A DNA stretch of 35,034 bases from positions 1-35,034 of IMG/VR virus record IMGVR_UViG_3300032893_000200. One strand, given 5' to 3'. The position numbers were made by a program, and so were the translations under genes. The number at the start of each line of letters is the position of its first letter. The stretch's first letter is position 1. Shown piece after piece: positions 1,352 to 8,868 of this stretch. The stretch comes from a virus. A model generated the notes under the pieces. The model saw only the letters and a program-made list of their open reading frames with translations. It was not told the DNA's origin and did not search any database.

Positions 1352-2900
1352 CGGCGACAGCGAGTTCGTCTGGGCGCAACGTCAACTGTGCGAAGAGATA
1401 GAACGACAGTATAACGCGCGGAAACCTGTGCGGATTATTGTCCTTAAGGCGCGCCAGCTAGGCATCAGCACGGCGACAGAAGGCGTCATCTTCAACTGGT
1501 CGTTCATTCAGCCAGGCACGAACTCACTCATCATCGCCCACGAAACAGGCTCATCTCGTGGCTTGTTTGAGATGACGAAACGATACTGGGAGACGTGGCC
1601 GTTCCGCGATGTGTATACGCAGAAGTACTCGACACGTTCAGAACTTTCGTGGGTGGAGACGCGGAGCCATATCAAGGTGGCGACAGCCAAGAACCTTGCT
1701 TCTGGACGAGGGTCCACTCTACATGCCGTCCATGCCAGCGAGTGTGCATTCTACGCGGATGCCGAAACTCTGATGACGGGTCTGAACCAAACGATCCCTG
1801 ACCTGCACGGCACGATCGTCGTCCTAGAATCAACGGCCAACGGCGTCGGCAACTGGTTCCACAAAGAATGGCTCAAGGCCACCGAAGGCGAATCAGACTA
1901 CGTACCGCTGTTCTTCCCGTGGTGGAAACATAAAGAGTACTCGTTCGCCACAACCCTCAGCGTGAAATCTGAACTGGACGCGGACGAACGACGACTTCTC
2001 ATCATGGGTGCGACATACGAACATATCGCGTGGCGACGATGGGCGATCATCAATAAGGCGAACGGCGACCTCGATAACTTCATGCAGGAATATCCTGCGA
2101 CACCAGACGAAGCGTTCATCACCTCGGGTCGTCCCATCTTCTCGCACACACGCCTACGAGAATGTTACGCATATGAACCAGGACATCGTGGATACTTCAC
2201 GGACTTGCAGGATGGTACGGTACGCTTCAACCACGATCGTTCCGGTAACATGCGGATATTCCGCCGACCAGACCCACGCGACAAACGGCAGGATAGATAT
2301 TTCGTTGCGGGCGACCCCAGTAAAGTCATTTCGGGTGACCCGGCTTGCATCCAGGTAATCAACCGCGCGACCTTTGAGCAGGTAGCGGTTTGGCACGGCC
2401 GCGTCGATCCTATCACCCTCGGTAACGAGATGGTGCGTATCGGCAAGTATTTCAACTGGGCGACCTTATGTCCTGAGGTTGAAGGCGGCGGTCAAGCGAC
2501 CATCGCGACAATCCTCACGCAAAACTACCCTAACGTCTGGATGCACCGTTCCGCCGACCGAGTAACGAAAGGCTTCTCGCTGTTCGGCTGGTCAACGAAC
2601 TACCAACGGAAAAACTGGTGTATTGGTACGTTACAACGTATGGTGATCGACCATTCCATTACGATCCACGACGTCATCACGTATAACCAAATGGTCAACT
2701 ATTCCGAGTTGGACAACGGCGATTGGGGTAACTCTGACCCTGACGTCCATGACGATGCGGTCATGGCATATGCGATCGGGGTAACGGCCAGTCGTACGGA
2801 GCCCTTCACGGCTGACCTCGCGCCTTACCCGTCGCTCGCGCATGAACTTATCGAGCAGGAGTACAGCTTCGAGTTTGACGATGGCTCAGGCGTCAGGTAA
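1272..2900 (+). CDS. terL: Terminase large subunit (packaging ATPase and nuclease)
   Basis: 542 residues, a normal length for the DNA-packaging motor that translocates DNA into the prohead and cuts concatemers. The ATPase domain has a deviant Walker A (residues 57-67, VLKARQLGIST), a Walker B region ending in acidic E157 (HAVHASECAF) and the coupling motif VLESTANG (184-191). The nuclease domain has three acidic clusters expected of the RNase H-like fold: AGDPS (D348), PEVEGGG (E402/E404) and VHDDAVMA (D494/D495). The start overlaps the upstream gene by 80 bp. The gene heads the usual terminase-portal-scaffold-capsid order. Confidence 0.95.
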   Translation: MALRLTPLLQQLTIQTKSLELKRLDLSGDSEFVWAQRQLCEEIERQYNARKPVRIIVLKARQLGISTATEGVIFNWSFIQPGTNSLIIAHETGSSRGLFEMTKRYWETWPFRDVYTQKYSTRSELSWVETRSHIKVATAKNLASGRGSTLHAVHASECAFYADAETLMTGLNQTIPDLHGTIVVLESTANGVGNWFHKEWLKATEGESDYVPLFFPWWKHKEYSFATTLSVKSELDADERRLLIMGATYEHIAWRRWAIINKANGDLDNFMQEYPATPDEAFITSGRPIFSHTRLRECYAYEPGHRGYFTDLQDGTVRFNHDRSGNMRIFRRPDPRDKRQDRYFVAGDPSKVISGDPACIQVINRATFEQVAVWHGRVDPITLGNEMVRIGKYFNWATLCPEVEGGGQATIATILTQNYPNVWMHRSADRVTKGFSLFGWSTNYQRKNWCIGTLQRMVIDHSITIHDVITYNQMVNYSELDNGDWGNSDPDVHDDAVMAYAIGVTASRTEPFTADLAPYPSLAHELIEQEYSFEFDDGSGVR

Positions 2901-2910
2901 GGTCCGTCGT

Positions 2911-3363
2911 ATGCCGTTCTACGAGTATGTCTGCCCCCAGGAATGCGGCTACACGTACGAGACGCAGAGGTTCGCGAAGATCGGCGAGACTCTGACTATG
3001 CCAGTAGGGCGCGGAGATACGCTTACGGCTAAGTGTCCGCAGTGTCGCGTTCCTATTGTACGATGCGTTTCCTTGCCGCAAGTACGACCAACAGCCGAAC
3101 CGTACTTCAACCATAACGTCGGTACGTGGATCAAAGACGACGCGGACCTACGACGTCAACTTAAGCGCAAGGCGGCAAAGAACTCGGAACTCACGGGCAC
3201 AGACCATAACTATCAGCCTGTCTACCCTGGCGACCTGACGGACCCCGGCACGATGAAGAAGCTCGGCATTGGGCGCGGTGCAGACCGCGGCGAATCAATC
3301 GAACATGCCAGACGTACGAACCCACGCTCACGTCCCAAGACCAAGACGAAAGTCATCACATGA
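2911..3363 (+). CDS. FmdB-type zinc-ribbon protein
   Basis: 150 residues. The N-terminus MPFYEYVCPQECG followed by AKCPQC matches the start of the FmdB regulatory-type zinc ribbon (typically MPxYEYxCxxCG...CPxC), with four Cys in two pairs binding one zinc. That similarity decides the start at 2911 over upstream in-frame ATGs at 2842 and 2881; GGTAAGG lies just before it. The rest is basic and polar, ending in a Lys/Arg/Thr-rich tail. FmdB-like mini-proteins occur between terminase and portal in many phages and their role there is unknown. It overlaps the next gene by ATGA. Confidence 0.8.
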   Translation: MPFYEYVCPQECGYTYETQRFAKIGETLTMPVGRGDTLTAKCPQCRVPIVRCVSLPQVRPTAEPYFNHNVGTWIKDDADLRRQLKRKAAKNSELTGTDHNYQPVYPGDLTDPGTMKKLGIGRGADRGESIEHARRTNPRSRPKTKTKVIT

Positions 3364-3704
3364 GCAGCCAAGTTACCCTCGCGTCCGTCAGCAGCATCCC
3401 GGTCAGTAGCGGATCAGTCAACCTCAACATCGCATGGACGATCAACGCGCCGCTCGACGTACGGCAGCAGATTACGGTCGGCACCAGCTTCACGGCCGTA
3501 ACGGTTCCGTCAGGCGCGTCCCTCTGCGTCATCATCCCCCCGACGACAAACACGAACGCGCTCACTCTCAAGGGCGTGACGGGAGACACGGGCATCCCCA
3601 TCTCGCCGTCGCAGCCGACAGTCATCCCATGCGTCGGCAGCACAGCGTTCGGCCTGCTCGCGACAGGTGCGACGATCCCGCTCACCGAAATCGTCTTCCT
3701 CTGA
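3360..3704 (+). CDS. Hypothetical beta-rich protein, 114 aa
   Basis: The protein is almost entirely Ser/Thr/Val/Ile-rich with alternating hydrophobic residues, and has few charges and no membrane span. It probably folds as a small beta-sandwich. Its place between terminase and portal, coupled by ATGA to the gene before and TGATG to the one after, fits a minor virion or decoration protein. No family is recognised. Cys residues near 55 and 92 are not in a metal-binding pattern. Confidence 0.65.
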   Translation: MSSQVTLASVSSIPVSSGSVNLNIAWTINAPLDVRQQITVGTSFTAVTVPSGASLCVIIPPTTNTNALTLKGVTGDTGIPISPSQPTVIPCVGSTAFGLLATGATIPLTEIVFL

Positions 3705-3850
3705 TGCCGTTCCAGTCCGAAGCGCAACGACGTTTCCTCTGGGCGAAACACCCAGACATCGCACAACGATGGGCTGACGAATCCAAACGTACGACGAAAC
3801 GGAAGGCGTCACGTGGCAGCGGTAAACGCCATCACCAGACACGACGCTGA
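3704..3850 (+). CDS. Small basic phage protein (SEAQRRFLWAKHP type)
   Basis: 48 residues beginning MPFQSEAQRRFLWAKHP and ending in a Lys/Arg/His-rich tail. Short proteins with a very similar opening (SxAQRRxxxAKHPxIAxRW) are common in tailed phages near packaging and head genes, though their function is unknown to me. The start at 3704 overlaps the preceding stop as TGATG, and its 3' end overlaps the portal gene by 38 bp. The net charge is strongly positive, which suggests nucleic-acid contact. Confidence 0.7.
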   Translation: MPFQSEAQRRFLWAKHPDIAQRWADESKRTTKRKASRGSGKRHHQTRR

Positions 3851-5645
3851 CGAAGAACTCGTCAACCGGCTACGTAACCTGTTCACACGGGCACGTGACC
3901 ACAGACGGGCCCGCCACGACACGTGGATACGAAACTACCGGCTGATCCATAATAAGATCGGCACAAGCGGCCTGTCCGCCTGGATGCCGTCCCCACGCGA
4001 CAGCGAAATCTTCCCCACGTTAAGCAGCGTCGTCGCCTGGATGATGGATAACAACGTCACCATCGACGCCATCCCCGCGACGGACCCAAACTCACCGATC
4101 TACAACTTCACGTCCCAGCTTGCGAACAACCTCGCGGACCTCCTCTACACGAACTGGATCGTCGAGGCGTACTCGCATTCCGTGAAACTTGCCCTCTGGG
4201 ATACCCTCACGTACGGCGTCGGCATCCTCAAGACGGTATGGGACGGCGACCGCGACGACGGTTACGGTAATGCGATGATGTACCGGGTCGATCCGTGGAA
4301 GTTCTACGTCGACCCACATGCGACATCTCTCCACGACATGGAATACTGTGTCGAGGCGCGGCGCATGTCCGAGGACGAAATCGCACGGCGATACCCCGAC
4401 GTACGCTTCCATTCCTCGGGTGGCGGTGCGTCCGACATGCAACTGGACGAGAAGCCTGAACTCTTCTCTTCGCAGTCAGGACAGCCGTATGCTAACGCTG
4501 GTCAAATCCCTGGGTCTGGTAGTTTTGCCGTTCCTTCAACTAACACTCCTTCTGGGCCTGGAAGTTCTGTGTTTGGACGATACGGACGACCTAAGCAGTC
4601 CAAGTCCAAGCACGCCGATCGCGGCGTAGTAGTCTACGAGTTCTGGCTCAGAGAGAATGAAGAGTGGACGGAAGATTTCTCCGACCTACCTGCCGCAACG
4701 CGCCCCGATCCTATTCACCATGTCGTCAGCCGGTGGCGCTGCATTGTCCTTGCACAAGGGCAAATCCTCATGGATGAATATGCGGAAGACCTCTGGTCCC
4801 ACGCCCAGCACCCGTACGAACGAGTCGTCTTCGATGACGTCGGAGAGTTCTACGGCGTAGCGCTCGTTGATCATCTCGCGTACCCGCAAATCTACATCAA
4901 CCGCCTCCTGACCATGATGGAGCAGAATGCGGAACTGATCGGCAACCCGATCTTCGTCGAGCCGGCGAACTCCGGTACGACCCGCGTCCCCATCATCAAC
5001 CGGCCAGGGCAACGTTTGACCATCCAAGGCGCGGCCGCAATGCAGAACCGGCCCGACTGGCTGAAACCGCCAGAAATGCCGACGATGATAATGGACTTGG
5101 TAAACTTCTGGATCGCCCGCATCGAGAACACGTCTGGTCTTAGCGCCATCACGAAAGGTGCGACCCCCAATCAGCGGAACGCAGAAGGGGTCATTAACAC
5201 GGTCCAGGAAGCCGCGTTCGTCCGTATCCGCGCAGCACTCCACAACCTTGAGGTCGCGCTTGAAGCCTGCAACGTAAAACTTGCGGACCTCATCATTGAC
5301 AACTATACGGAGAAGCGCGTCAAAGCGATCCTCGGTCCTGACGGCGAGAAGACGGCGATGGTCATTTTCTCGCGCCACTTCTACGCCCCATCAGACGACG
5401 GCGATGTCCCGCTCAAGTTCATCGTCCAAGTACGAGCCGGTGCGGCAGCCCCCACGTCCCGCCAAGCGCGTATCGGGGAAGCGGACAAACTGTTCGCACT
5501 CGGCGTCATCGACGACCTCGCCGTCCTGAACGCCCACCAGTACCCGCACGCGCAGGAAATCCTCGCGCGCCTCTACGACAAGCGGCAGAAGGGCCTTATG
5601 GGCGGCGGACCCGGCGCACGAAAGACGGCCGGTCGCACTTCCTGA
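3813..5645 (+). CDS. Portal protein
   Basis: 610 residues, within the range of podovirus-type portals. It forms the dodecameric ring at the capsid vertex through which DNA enters and leaves. It shows the usual portal pattern: an N-terminal helical region with the PSPRDSEIFPTLSSVVAWMM stretch (about 59-78), TYGVGILKTVWDG (133-145), a core motif RVDPWKFYVDPHA (158-170), and a long helical C-terminal half with ENTSGLSAITKGATPNQRNA. The start is GTG at 3813 with GGAAGG upstream. Gene order directly after terminase supports the call. The stretch around residues 215-265 is Gly/Ser/Pro-rich and likely a flexible insertion. Confidence 0.9.
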   Translation: MAAVNAITRHDADEELVNRLRNLFTRARDHRRARHDTWIRNYRLIHNKIGTSGLSAWMPSPRDSEIFPTLSSVVAWMMDNNVTIDAIPATDPNSPIYNFTSQLANNLADLLYTNWIVEAYSHSVKLALWDTLTYGVGILKTVWDGDRDDGYGNAMMYRVDPWKFYVDPHATSLHDMEYCVEARRMSEDEIARRYPDVRFHSSGGGASDMQLDEKPELFSSQSGQPYANAGQIPGSGSFAVPSTNTPSGPGSSVFGRYGRPKQSKSKHADRGVVVYEFWLRENEEWTEDFSDLPAATRPDPIHHVVSRWRCIVLAQGQILMDEYAEDLWSHAQHPYERVVFDDVGEFYGVALVDHLAYPQIYINRLLTMMEQNAELIGNPIFVEPANSGTTRVPIINRPGQRLTIQGAAAMQNRPDWLKPPEMPTMIMDLVNFWIARIENTSGLSAITKGATPNQRNAEGVINTVQEAAFVRIRAALHNLEVALEACNVKLADLIIDNYTEKRVKAILGPDGEKTAMVIFSRHFYAPSDDGDVPLKFIVQVRAGAAAPTSRQARIGEADKLFALGVIDDLAVLNAHQYPHAQEILARLYDKRQKGLMGGGPGARKTAGRTS

Positions 5646-5690: not shown

Positions 5691-5891
5691 ATGCCTTCAT
5701 ACCCGAAACCAGACGGCTGGCAAGGCGGACCTGACGGCGGGCACTTCCTCCGCACGGGTGCCGCGGGCCACATCGGCGCAAACCCGAACATCGAAGCCTT
5801 CCAGGACCTTGAGACGCGGAAAAACGCGTCTCCCATCGGGGACTTCTGCATTTCCGCTCCCGGCATCGAAGCCGACTGGGACGACGACTGA
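5691..5891 (+). CDS. Hypothetical protein, 66 aa
   Basis: The small reading frame after the portal opens MPSYPKPDGWQGG and ends in acidic DWDDD. It is Gly/Pro-rich with little secondary structure apparent. Neither ATG 5691 nor the upstream TTG at 5655 has a good ribosome-binding site, so the start is uncertain; the TTG would add 12 residues. No family is recognised. Its acidic end contrasts with the basic mini-proteins that follow. Confidence 0.5.
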   Translation: MPSYPKPDGWQGGPDGGHFLRTGAAGHIGANPNIEAFQDLETRKNASPIGDFCISAPGIEADWDDD

Positions 5892-6015
5892 TGCGGCTGT
5901 CCGCCGCGACGACGACCGAGGCTGTGGCGTAGAGTGAATATCCTCCGCGCAGCCCGTCGCACCCTCCACCTTCCTAACCGTCCTCGGACATTCAGAACGA
6001 GGGGGGGTGTGAACT

Positions 6016-6054
6016 ATGGCACGTCACCGGCGTCGCGGACACAAGCGTAAGTAA
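6016..6054 (+). CDS. Possible 12-residue basic micropeptide
   Basis: MARHRRRGHKRK, eight of twelve residues Arg or Lys, follows a G-rich ribosome-binding stretch (GAGGGGGGG, 8 nt before the ATG). Two more basic mini-proteins follow with similar RGH/RRH content, which argues that this is not chance. It is too short for confident calling, and it could be a leader peptide or a remnant. Confidence 0.35.
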   Translation: MARHRRRGHKRK

Positions 6055-6062
6055 CTGTTGAT

Positions 6063-6104
6063 GGCGGGGGGTCGTGCTTGGCCCCCCACGCCCCGCCCCC
6101 CGCC
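6063..6104. repeat. GC-rich inverted repeat between basic mini-genes
   Basis: GGCGGGGGG (6063-6071) pairs perfectly with CCCCCCGCC (6096-6104). A competing, nearer partner CCCCCC lies at 6082-6087, so two alternative stems are possible. No T-tract follows, so it is not a standard terminator. It sits between the 12-residue and 37-residue frames, just before a strong GGAGG ribosome-binding site, and could set mRNA stability or limit read-through between portal and head genes. Confidence 0.6.
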
Positions 6105-6124
6105 ACAACCTTCGGAGGATCAAT

Positions 6125-6238
6125 ATGGCAGTAGGACCCGCGGCTAAAGGTTCACTTCCCAACAAGGGAGCGGACATCCCGCCCAACCTACGACGCGGTG
6201 GACGTCGCGGCCGACGCCATCACGGGAAGAGGAAGTAG
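6125..6238 (+). CDS. Basic mini-protein, 37 aa
   Basis: Preceded by a strong GGAGG site (spacing about 7). The first half is neutral and flexible (AVGPAAKGSLPNKGADIPP). The second half is almost entirely Arg/Lys/His/Gly (RRGGRRGRRHHGKRK), like a protamine tail. Such a tail would bind DNA or RNA non-specifically. Its position between portal and scaffold suggests a packaged or head-associated peptide, but no family is recognised. Confidence 0.6.
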   Translation: MAVGPAAKGSLPNKGADIPPNLRRGGRRGRRHHGKRK

Positions 6239-6240
6239 CC

Positions 6241-6321
6241 ATGCGCCATAGAGGATCACACGGAGTCCGCGTCGGGCGTACCATGAAAGCCCGCGCCTAT
6301 AGCAGAGGACGGAGACACTAA
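6241..6321 (+). CDS. Basic mini-protein, 26 aa
   Basis: MRHRGSHGVRVGRTMKARAY continues with SRGRRH, ten basic residues (Arg or Lys) in 26. It starts 2 nt after the previous stop with AGAGGAAG upstream and overlaps the next start as TAATG, so it is embedded in a translated series. The composition resembles tiny DNA-binding virion proteins (for example protein J of microviruses) only in a general way. I infer nucleic-acid contact and nothing more specific. Confidence 0.55.
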   Translation: MRHRGSHGVRVGRTMKARAYSRGRRH

Positions 6322-6461
6322 TGCCCGCAGAAGGTAACGTCAAGAAGGGCACGAACCAGTTCATGCGTCAAGGTCACACGACGGCCAACGCCTTCGGTGC
6401 GAACGTCACGATCGACGCGAAAGGCACGGCTGGCGAAGCCCCGAAGGAAATCAAGCCGTAG
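6321..6461 (+). CDS. Hypothetical mini-protein, 46 aa
   Basis: Reads MPAEGNVKKGTNQFMRQGHT at its N-terminus and is otherwise rich in Gly, Ala, Thr and Lys, with no membrane span. The start overlaps the previous stop (TAATG), and the stop lies directly before the next ATG. It is moderately basic and continues the run of short basic proteins after the portal. No family is recognised. Confidence 0.55.
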   Translation: MPAEGNVKKGTNQFMRQGHTTANAFGANVTIDAKGTAGEAPKEIKP

Positions 6462-6843: not shown

Positions 6844-7908
6844 ATGACTCAGCTTGAACCAGAAGACACGTCCAGCGTATCAATGGAACAACTGGAAGAG
6901 TTTCTCGCGCGCAACACGCGCGACATTCTCGCACCAGTTGTCCCTGGTCAGAACAAGATCACGGGCAGGTTCCAGTCAGGCACGACGGGCACCCCTCCGC
7001 CCGCCGCACACGTAGAGGATGCGTCAGCGCCGACCCCGACGAATCCTCCCCTGGACGCGGATGACGACTCTGACGAATCCGATACGGATGAGCGGGAGGA
7101 GGTGGACGCGGAAGACGAAGGCGAGGGTGACGGGGAAGACACCCCGCCTTCGTCCGACGCGCCGCCAGTCGTAGCCGATACGTCCACGTCCACACCCGCA
7201 TCCACGCCGCCGGAACTCATCGAGGTACGGCCCGGCGAATACATGACGCGGGAAGCGATCAGCGCGGCGCTGGCATCACGCGCGGGAGGGACGGGCGAGG
7301 CTGAGTCAACCGTCCCTCCCGTCGCGTCACCTGCCCCCGCCGACGTCCCACTCCCGACGATTCCGCAAGAGTTGTTGGACGACCCTGAGCTTGGCCCGTT
7401 CGCGCGTGTCCTCCAGCAGCAGCAATCAGCCTTGGACGAGCAGCGCAAGCAGCTAGCATTTGTCAGCGATATCGCGGTAGCACGCGCTCAGGAAGAACTC
7501 CAATCGCGTGTCACGGCAGGTATTCATCAGTTTCGCGACGACAAGACTCTCAGCGACGACGAACTTGCCGAGGTCAACCGGGTCGCGGCCAACCTGAACG
7601 TCATGCCGTCTCTTGCCAGCGGCATCGACCCCATCACGGGTGAGACTGTTCCGCGCGACCCGCAGCGTGCGGCGTACCGTGCTTTGGAAATCGCCTACTG
7701 GCAGATGCCGAAGTATCGCGAGCAGGAAGTCCAGCGCGCGACGGCAGCCAGGGCAAAGGACTCCCGACGTAAGCAGAAGCTCGCAGGAGTGTCAGGTGGT
7801 AGCGGCTCAGTCCCACGAACCACATCAGTCCCCACCGATAGGCGGGGACGCGAACTCGCGGCAGTATCAGAACTCCGCGAAATGATGTCCCCCGGATCAG
7901 AGGAGTAA
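6844..7908 (+). CDS. Putative capsid scaffolding protein
   Basis: 354 residues. A short helical start (about 13-35) precedes a very acidic, disordered tract rich in Asp/Glu/Ser/Pro (about 55-130). It continues with a Pro/Ala linker and a helical C-terminal half containing ARVLQQQQSALDEQRKQLAF and a final basic segment (about 310-345). An acidic, extended protein with a basic helical C-terminus encoded directly before the major capsid gene is the usual signature of a scaffold, whose C-terminal helices bind coat protein. No catalytic protease motif is seen. The call rests on composition and position. Confidence 0.7.
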   Translation: MTQLEPEDTSSVSMEQLEEFLARNTRDILAPVVPGQNKITGRFQSGTTGTPPPAAHVEDASAPTPTNPPLDADDDSDESDTDEREEVDAEDEGEGDGEDTPPSSDAPPVVADTSTSTPASTPPELIEVRPGEYMTREAISAALASRAGGTGEAESTVPPVASPAPADVPLPTIPQELLDDPELGPFARVLQQQQSALDEQRKQLAFVSDIAVARAQEELQSRVTAGIHQFRDDKTLSDDELAEVNRVAANLNVMPSLASGIDPITGETVPRDPQRAAYRALEIAYWQMPKYREQEVQRATAARAKDSRRKQKLAGVSGGSGSVPRTTSVPTDRRGRELAAVSELREMMSPGSEE

Positions 7909-7911
7909 GTA

Positions 7912-8868
7912 GTGGCTACGCCTATCGGCACCAACGAGGTCAACTCGATCTCGCGGCGATACATCTACCCGACGTTGGTTGACAACGTCTACCGATCAAA
8001 CTTGATGTTCTTCCGGCTGAACGCGCGGAACAAGAAGATTCTCCAAGGCGGATACCAGATCGAAGTCCCCTTGGTGTACGCAAAGTTTGCGGCCGGCGGC
8101 TGGTACCAGGGTTTCGACGTCCTCGACGTATCCCCCTCGGACACGGTGAAGAACGCGGCGTTCGACTGGAAGCAGGCGTACACGCCAGTCAGCGTGGACG
8201 GCCTCACGCTTATCCGTACGGACAGCCCCGAGGCGATCGTCAACTTCCTCGGCTTCCAGTTTGAGCAGGCGCAGACCAACCTCGCGGACATCATCGGCAG
8301 CGGGGTCTGGTCCGACGTCATCTCCAACAACAAGTCCGTAGACGGCTTGAAGGGTGCGATCGACGACGGCACCGTCGCCACCACCTATGGTGGACTGTTG
8401 CGGAGTAGCAATACGTTCTGGAAGTCGCAGGTTGACTCTTCCACGACGGCGACAGGTCTTGCGGCGATGCAGGCGCTGTTCGGCAACTGCACAGAAGGTG
8501 CGCGTCATCCGACGATCATTGTCACGACCCAGGCGATCTACAACTTCTACTGGGCGCTGAACACGTCCGGTCAGTCGTTCCCGACGATGCCTGGCGGGAC
8601 GGACGAACTCCTCGCACAGTCTGGTTTCACGAACCTCCTCTTCAACGGAGTGCCGGTCGTCGTAGACTCGTGGGTCCCGACGTCCCATATGTTCATGGTC
8701 AACGAGGACTACGTCTACCTGTTTGTCAACCCGCGTGCAGACTTCAACATGAAGGACTTCCGCGAGCCGATCAACCAGGACGCGATGACGTCCCTCATCT
8801 TGTTCGCTGGTAACGTAGTCCTCAGCAACTGTCAGCGTCACGGCAAGTTTACCGCCCTCACGTCATAG
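7912..8868 (+). CDS. Major capsid protein
   Basis: 318 residues, GTG start with AGAGGAG six bases upstream. It follows the scaffold gene and precedes a small structural gene, the standard slot for the HK97-fold coat protein. Internal features fit: an N-terminal arm (about 1-35), PLVYAKFAAGGWYQGFDVL, an ATIIVTTQ-like central strand (TIIVTTQAIYNFYW, about 201-215), and a C-terminal strand region NGVPVVVDSWVPTSHMFMVN. There is no N-terminal delta-domain or protease cleavage motif that I can see, consistent with a separate scaffold. Family membership is inferred, not searched. Confidence 0.85.
   Translation: MATPIGTNEVNSISRRYIYPTLVDNVYRSNLMFFRLNARNKKILQGGYQIEVPLVYAKFAAGGWYQGFDVLDVSPSDTVKNAAFDWKQAYTPVSVDGLTLIRTDSPEAIVNFLGFQFEQAQTNLADIIGSGVWSDVISNNKSVDGLKGAIDDGTVATTYGGLLRSSNTFWKSQVDSSTTATGLAAMQALFGNCTEGARHPTIIVTTQAIYNFYWALNTSGQSFPTMPGGTDELLAQSGFTNLLFNGVPVVVDSWVPTSHMFMVNEDYVYLFVNPRADFNMKDFREPINQDAMTSLILFAGNVVLSNCQRHGKFTALTS

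Follow-up and report, generated by a model that had tools for sequence, protein, structure and literature searches.

The window, by which we mean the whole 35,034-nucleotide stretch analysed here (a 35 kb virus record), carries a head module of the Mx8-like type, the features of which are described below and all lie on the + strand. The portal protein (3813–5645; phrog_156, E = 6e-34) is followed at its 3′ side by a 66-residue acidic protein (5691–5891), similar to small proteins found in relatives. The major capsid protein (MCP; 7912–8868; phrog_9953, E = 1e-57) lies immediately 3′ of a scaffold-like protein (6844–7908), assigned from its acidity and position and without a match in the family libraries searched. 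The MCP is approximately 30% identical to the capsid proteins of Bradyrhizobium phage ppBjS10J-1, Stenotrophomonas phage BUCT555 and Myxococcus phages Mx8 and Mx9. The head region had no DNA-level relative among 50,697 phage records, and no close isolated relatives were found for TerL and the helicase. A 173-residue protein between the terminase and the portal (2842–3363) has a zinc-ribbon match that is weak and falls below the Pfam cut-off (E = 0.0044).

Four small frames of 12, 37, 26 and 46 residues lie between the portal and the scaffold, as the preliminary description reported. The first, ORF1 (6016–6054; MARHRRRGHKRK), is a conserved mini-gene, recognized by its conservation, its substitution pattern and its Shine–Dalgarno sequence (SD; GAGGGGGGGTG, 5999–6009). 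The duplex of this SD with the anti-SD has an energy of −18.1 kcal/mol, and of the roughly 1000 ATGs in the window, both strands counted, the next best reaches −14.3 kcal/mol. The good ribosome-binding sites ascribed to the series are thus exceptional for ORF1, which ranks first of those ATGs, and ordinary for ORF2, ORF3 and the 46-residue frame. Likewise, the stop–start overlaps reported for the series reduce to a single one of 1 nt, between ORF3 and the 46-residue frame; ORF1 and ORF2 are separated by 70 nt that contain a stem-loop, ORF2 and ORF3 by 2 nt, and the 46-residue frame abuts the next gene.

ORF2 (6125–6238), taken from the frame list and with analogous mini-genes in relatives, encodes 37 residues ending in the basic tail RRGGRRGRRHHGKRK, and ORF3 (6241–6321) encodes a 26-residue basic protein with a motif, R-V-x-V-G-R-x-x-x-R-G, common to close relatives. 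Both are additional basic mini-genes, less conserved than ORF1; many relatives carry ORF2-like basic frames of different sequence, in which no single family was discerned by eye. Neither ORF2 nor ORF3 matched a family in Pfam, NCBIfam or PHROG, and searches of the PDB with ORF2 and with mini-proteins from two relatives gave no match, or only matches with E ≥ 0.5. These family and structure tools apply to sequences of at least 20 residues, a length above that of ORF1. The 46-residue ‘GHT’ protein (6321–6461) had been counted with the basic cluster, from which it has to be removed: its net charge is only +2, and it belongs to a separate conserved family, which makes it a neighbour of the mini-polycations and not one of them. 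Members of this family (43–56 residues, encoded before the scaffold, as also in locus L034 at 4556–4690) are kept in loci without mini-genes as well, and the 46-residue protein had no match in Pfam, PHROG, NCBIfam or the PDB. The further basic protein of 48 residues said to precede the portal is present at 3704–3850 (MPFQSEAQRRFLW...), where it overlaps the portal start; it has a weak match to phrog_1375 (E = 0.038), and a strict regular expression found its like in L003, L006 and L007, or 4 of 65 loci with the window.

Relatives were gathered by capsid- and portal-protein scans and capsid alignment, yielding 83 viral loci (L001–L019 and L025–L088, two of which share one contig) and an additional locus, L089, on a contig of an Acidimicrobiales metagenome-assembled genome (MAG). 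Loci L090–L184 were retrieved through the mini-ORF pattern itself and carry that selection bias; prevalence was therefore taken only from the 73 loci, window included and some of them near-copies, that have both portal and capsid in view. With a mini-ORF defined as 10–16 residues, of which 55% or more are R/K/H, preceded by an SD of 4 nt or longer, the ORF1-type gene is present in the portal–capsid interval of 35 of these 73 capsid-related loci. The 192 kb of interval sequence contain 39 such ORFs on the forward strand and none on the reverse, the other 665 kb of the 73 loci contain none on the forward strand and two on the reverse, and dinucleotide shuffles give a mean of 0.15 (20 rounds). 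Peptides in relatives include MARRGRKHHRK, MARRKGRHGKRG, MARHKRGGRKHGRK and MARKGRKSHRK. The strength of the start signal is shared: the SD ranks first among the ATGs of the locus in 33 of the 34 loci tested (some being near-copies), its median duplex energy is −19.5 kcal/mol over 44 lineages compared with −8.2 kcal/mol for the capsid gene, and it is stronger than that of the capsid gene in all 43 loci in which both were measured.

The same association was obtained without reference to the capsid. Two scans of a viral collection, in which a strong SD had to precede ATG-GCN-CGN and codons of basic type, returned 62 short ORFs (17 residues or fewer) and 36 long ones. Sixty of the 62 short matches sit in contigs that also encode a homologue of this phage group’s portal or capsid protein. 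The strand agrees in every one of these 60, and they lie 3′ of the portal and 5′ of the capsid gene where these are in view. The two out-of-context short matches overlap the end of a long ORF (L099) or lie inside another long ORF (L136). Only 2 of the 36 long matches fall in such contigs, and both are a 40-residue extended form of the mini-protein; this all-basic form, MARKKGKKGKKGGHLEHFKAMKKGGHKKGRKASRRGKRKG, occupies the same place behind a strong SD in L148 (588–707, − strand) and also occurs in L156. Far-diverged carriers, judged by portal (E ~1e-5) and capsid, include L097, L114, L128 and L135. Two HNH-type homing endonuclease-like ORFs, recognized by eye, were seen within head modules, one adjoining the mini-gene (L128, 5987–6385) and the other adjoining the capsid gene (L012, 5582–5998).

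Mapped on a 98-row capsid tree, the presence of the mini-gene requires 5 changes, compared with 32.6 when labels are shuffled (0 of 500 shuffles as low); the tree takes in loci retrieved by the mini-ORF pattern, the carriers L005, L185 and L186 were added by hand, and three rows with a short upstream region were omitted. All 23 rows of the window’s clade have the gene, L005 as a 23-residue form and L032 with a TTG start, which rules out the true loss implied by the latter’s scoring as absent on the tree. The capsid gene of L005 is split over two frames at approximately 6066–6071, probably through a sequencing or assembly error. A large clade, which we take from the sample identifiers to be mostly aquatic, lacks the gene except for a single carrier row, L054. 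Hidden carriers in clade L034–L051 and others were ruled out by a search made irrespective of the SD (ORFs of 9–25 residues, at least 50% R/K/H), which returned no family members.

Tandem mini-genes occur in L114, L031, L185 and L186. The last two are the complete GenBank genomes MW202753 (4437–4598) and MW202825 (4457–4617), in which pairs of 13-residue basic mini-genes are unannotated and have reverse-strand CDSs drawn over them. The deep-branching carrier L089 (DAIDHF010000027.1, 36 kb; MARKGRKSHRK) was binned in the Acidimicrobiales MAG and may hint at an actinobacterial host; co-binning is also possible, because none of 297 other Acidimicrobiales genomes searched has the capsid gene.

The substitution pattern is that of a coding frame. 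A first analysis of locus pairs required at least 75% peptide identity, which biases towards synonymous changes, and was repeated with capsid identity of 60–97% as the sole criterion. In the repeat, 41 of the 169 compared pairs had ORFs of equal length, and substitution rates at codon positions 1, 2 and 3 were 0.156, 0.135 and 0.398, third positions thus changing approximately 2.7-fold faster than the other two, with flanks that are near random (~0.7 mismatched). Fourteen locus pairs encode identical peptides; all nucleotide differences are silent in 13 of them and one has no difference, compared with 10–15 mismatches in the next 20 nt. No conserved upstream frame that would point to programmed frameshifting from the preceding gene was noticed on reading the loci of the relatives.

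The encoded peptide begins M-A-R and continues with R, K, H and G only, for a charge of approximately +7 to +10. Across 59 distinct copies, which represent 48 different peptides and include L099 and L136, the residues past M-A are 43% R, 21% G, 21% K and 14% H, or 99% in all, and D, E, N and Q, which the search pattern permitted, never occur. The peptides have the make-up by which a viral protamine would be recognized, dominated by Arg and Lys and free of acidic residues, and their lack of hydrophobic residues makes a membrane-active function unlikely. Length varies between 10 and 16 residues while the charge is maintained, as would be expected of a polycation.

ORF1 is therefore well supported as a real gene, and the same can be said of the wider statement that a family of soil phages has a conserved 10–16-codon gene, encoding a peptide almost exclusively of R, K, H and G, in its head-building cluster. 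Synonymous drift, fixed position, inheritance along the capsid tree and the unannotated pairs in the two GenBank genomes lend strong support to the proposal that gene callers overlook real genes here; conservation in related phages, which had been suggested as a check, is borne out by the 73-locus count, and the random decay in close relatives that would have spoken against the frames is absent from the window’s clade. The accompanying suggestion, that the products may neutralize packaged DNA or bind the portal, is compatible with their composition and position and with the strength of the SD. The preliminary description under-described the find, in that a conserved gene of 10–16 codons is present; its function as a DNA-binding polycation is inferred, at about even odds.

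That function, to which we give a probability of roughly one half, would be that of an abundant polycation offsetting the charge of the packaged DNA, similar in its working to the J protein of phiX174 and not homologous to it. Conservation, coding selection, a fixed position in the head module, an exceptional SD and an RKHG-only composition are the observations on which the proposal is based. Such a composition marks a disordered polycation that lacks any hydrophobic face, and the partner to be expected is nucleic acid or some other polyanion; the position, the exceptional SD, the tolerance of length and the tandem copies all fit a bulk product made at head assembly. The simplest account of these features is that the peptide would compensate DNA charge in the head. 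ORF1 would be translated into a disordered polycation of 10–16 residues, presumably late in infection and to very high levels, and the peptide would bind the phage’s own DNA, and perhaps also the inside of the capsid wall, while the head is assembled and the genome packaged, providing counter-charge as J does for single-stranded DNA. ORF2, ORF3 and the tandem copies of relatives may add to the same cationic load.

A T=7 capsid has approximately 415 subunits, and one peptide of approximately +8 per subunit would match only some 5% of the phosphates in a 35–38 kb genome, so that the proposal needs far more copies. An SD that is the strongest of its locus in 33 of 34 cases and stronger than that of the capsid gene in every comparison is in keeping with a need for thousands of copies per genome. 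Further support comes from the GHT protein, which is more basic where mini-genes are absent (median charge +6, n = 29) than where they are present (+2, n = 40), a difference that rests on very few evolutionary transitions. In this comparison, carriers were loci with a mini-gene SD energy of −9 or better, a threshold that is not binding for the copies in L001–L089 (−12.9 and down), and L005, L032, L185 and L186 were entered as carriers by hand. The pattern is as if the GHT protein had taken over the cationic charge. Against the polycation proposal, the mini-gene is absent from 38 of the 73 related loci and from all Mx8-like references examined; with approximately half of the related loci lacking it, it is not required for this type of capsid. 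A wider form of the proposal is more tentative and falls somewhat short of an even chance: tailed double-stranded DNA (dsDNA) phages might have protamines of their own, encoded by genes of 10–16 codons whose ribosome-binding site outranks all others in the stretch examined, their RKHG peptides packaged with the DNA in thousands of copies, ancestral to a large phage clade and largely lost in one mostly aquatic branch. On that reading, the mini-genes would have been missed because annotation stops near 30 codons.

Directly 3′ of ORF1, a GC-rich stem-loop without a T-run (6057–6109), recognized from folding energy, controls and paired changes, has an energy of −35.0 kcal/mol and a z score of −2.4 in the window (copy labelled L020). 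A short ORF with a strong SD, followed by a stem-loop, is also the anatomy of an attenuator, and the main rival explanation is accordingly that ORF1 acts as a leader: translation from the strong SD and a basic nascent chain, maybe slowing ribosomes, would control or stabilize the head-gene mRNA through the stem-loop, and the peptide would be discarded. In favour of a leader are the very short ORF with the strongest SD and the place-specificity of the stem-loop, z < −2 being reached directly 3′ of the mini-gene in 35 of 56 copies compared with 2 of 48 past the portal gene, 7 of 40 past the 46-residue gene and 2 of 45 past the MCP gene in mini-bearing loci; the control position just 5′ of ORF1 gave 12 of 57. 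The stem-loop sequences are unrelated across clades. Among five sets of close relatives, one (L083) has a clear consensus stem, with two-sided changes in 5 of 19 pairs and 9 of 76 cells broken, another (L058) has a weak one (6 of 18 pairs with two-sided changes, 12 of 54 cells broken), two have little or no consensus stem and the last has too few distinct rows.

Other properties of the copies make a leader rather unlikely. Approximately 40% of them keep the peptide without a significant stem-loop, the distance from stop codon to stem varies from 0 to 41 nt, and a T-run is present in 1 of 34 stems; codons drift while the residue class stays, leaving no single sensed amino acid, and tandem copies as well as N-terminally extended or longer forms (19–40 residues) remain basic. 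The variable spacing and the rarity of T-runs also mean that the structure is not a textbook terminator; an intrinsic terminator after ORF1 is ruled out by the stems being mostly without a T-run. An intrinsic-terminator scan of the + strand of the window returned none, and no known RNA family was matched.

It is also unlikely that the peptide serves as an assembly factor acting on a head protein (the portal, the acidic scaffold or the capsid) and not on DNA. The gene always lies between those for the portal and MCP, and the scaffolds of the family are acidic, as such a role would suggest; against this, an RKHG-only make-up that tolerates changes of length offers little for a specific protein interface, and scaffold acidity is unlinked to the presence of the mini-gene. 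Where mini-genes are present the scaffold is no more acidic (median charge −25 with, −34 without; scaffolds were picked automatically, and in some loci a fragment was taken), a comparison that also leaves the acidic scaffold unsupported as a loader of the peptide.

Short Arg-rich peptides bind RNA, and the very strong SD would suit a polycation directed at the host, binding its RNA, ribosomes or nucleoid and turning the cell to phage production. This reading is distinctly improbable, given that the gene belongs to the late head module and not with early genes and that the longer mini-proteins have no ribosomal or other protein match in NCBIfam or the PDB (ORF1 being too short to search), which also disposes of mimicry of small ribosomal proteins. 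That ORF1 is not a gene at all, whether a chance ORF (ruled out by the interval and shuffle counts and the capsid-blind context) or a conserved non-coding DNA or RNA element, has only its small size in its favour and is scarcely credible against the interval counts, the silent changes between identical peptides, the inheritance along the capsid tree, the position of the blind-scan matches and the substitution pattern.

Whatever the function, a gene of 11 codons that keeps its position, is under coding selection and has the top-ranked ribosome-binding site shows that the gene-length cut-offs now in use hide real genes of the head module. Tailed phages are usually thought to pack their DNA against metal ions and polyamines, without a dedicated peptide. 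A conserved, gene-encoded polycation, if confirmed, would revise this picture for a large group of uncultured phages and offer a simple system in which to study DNA pressure in capsids, and under the protamine reading few known conserved structural genes would be shorter than the mini-genes. Were ORF1 a leader, it would be a regulatory device of a new kind, situated in a head operon.

Several known systems bear comparison. The head modules of Mx8, Mx9, ppBjS10J-1 and BUCT555 share a related capsid and the gene order, and the portal–MCP intervals of Mx9, ppBjS10J-1 and BUCT555 contain no such mini-genes. No ORF1-like peptide in tailed phages was found described in the literature consulted, including passages of PMC11323111, PMC13386984 and PMC3608072. 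Attenuator leader peptides such as the his leader resemble ORF1 in having an SD-led ORF of 10–20 codons followed by a stem-loop, an arrangement present in 35 of 56 copies; they differ in that the mini-gene has mixed R/K/H/G codons with no repeated sensed residue or codon, no fixed spacing and mostly no T-run. The internal head proteins of tailed phages, such as those of T4, are co-assembled with the head and are much larger than the mini-proteins, and those mini-proteins long enough to search had no PHROG match. Adenovirus mu, which is cut from a precursor, and baculovirus P6.9 are short, Arg-rich and bind packaged dsDNA; they belong to other viruses and hosts, and the mini-protein resembles them in composition.

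The J protein of phiX174 is basic, has 24–38 residues and contacts the capsid through its C-terminal part. The hydrophobic and aromatic residues of that capsid-binding C terminus are absent from the mini-protein, which is RKHG nearly throughout in the 59 copies; the mini-protein is also shorter, at 10–16 residues, is restricted to R, K, H and G and belongs to tailed dsDNA phages. In PMC13386984 and PMC3608072, J appears as a packaging protein that binds DNA and guides the genome within the virion, and the terminator TJ is marked on the gene map. Like J, the mini-protein is very small and strongly basic, and its gene lies among those for the capsid. Family membership is unsupported by the tests made, and it is in its presumed manner of working that J would be the nearest published parallel to the ORF1 peptide.
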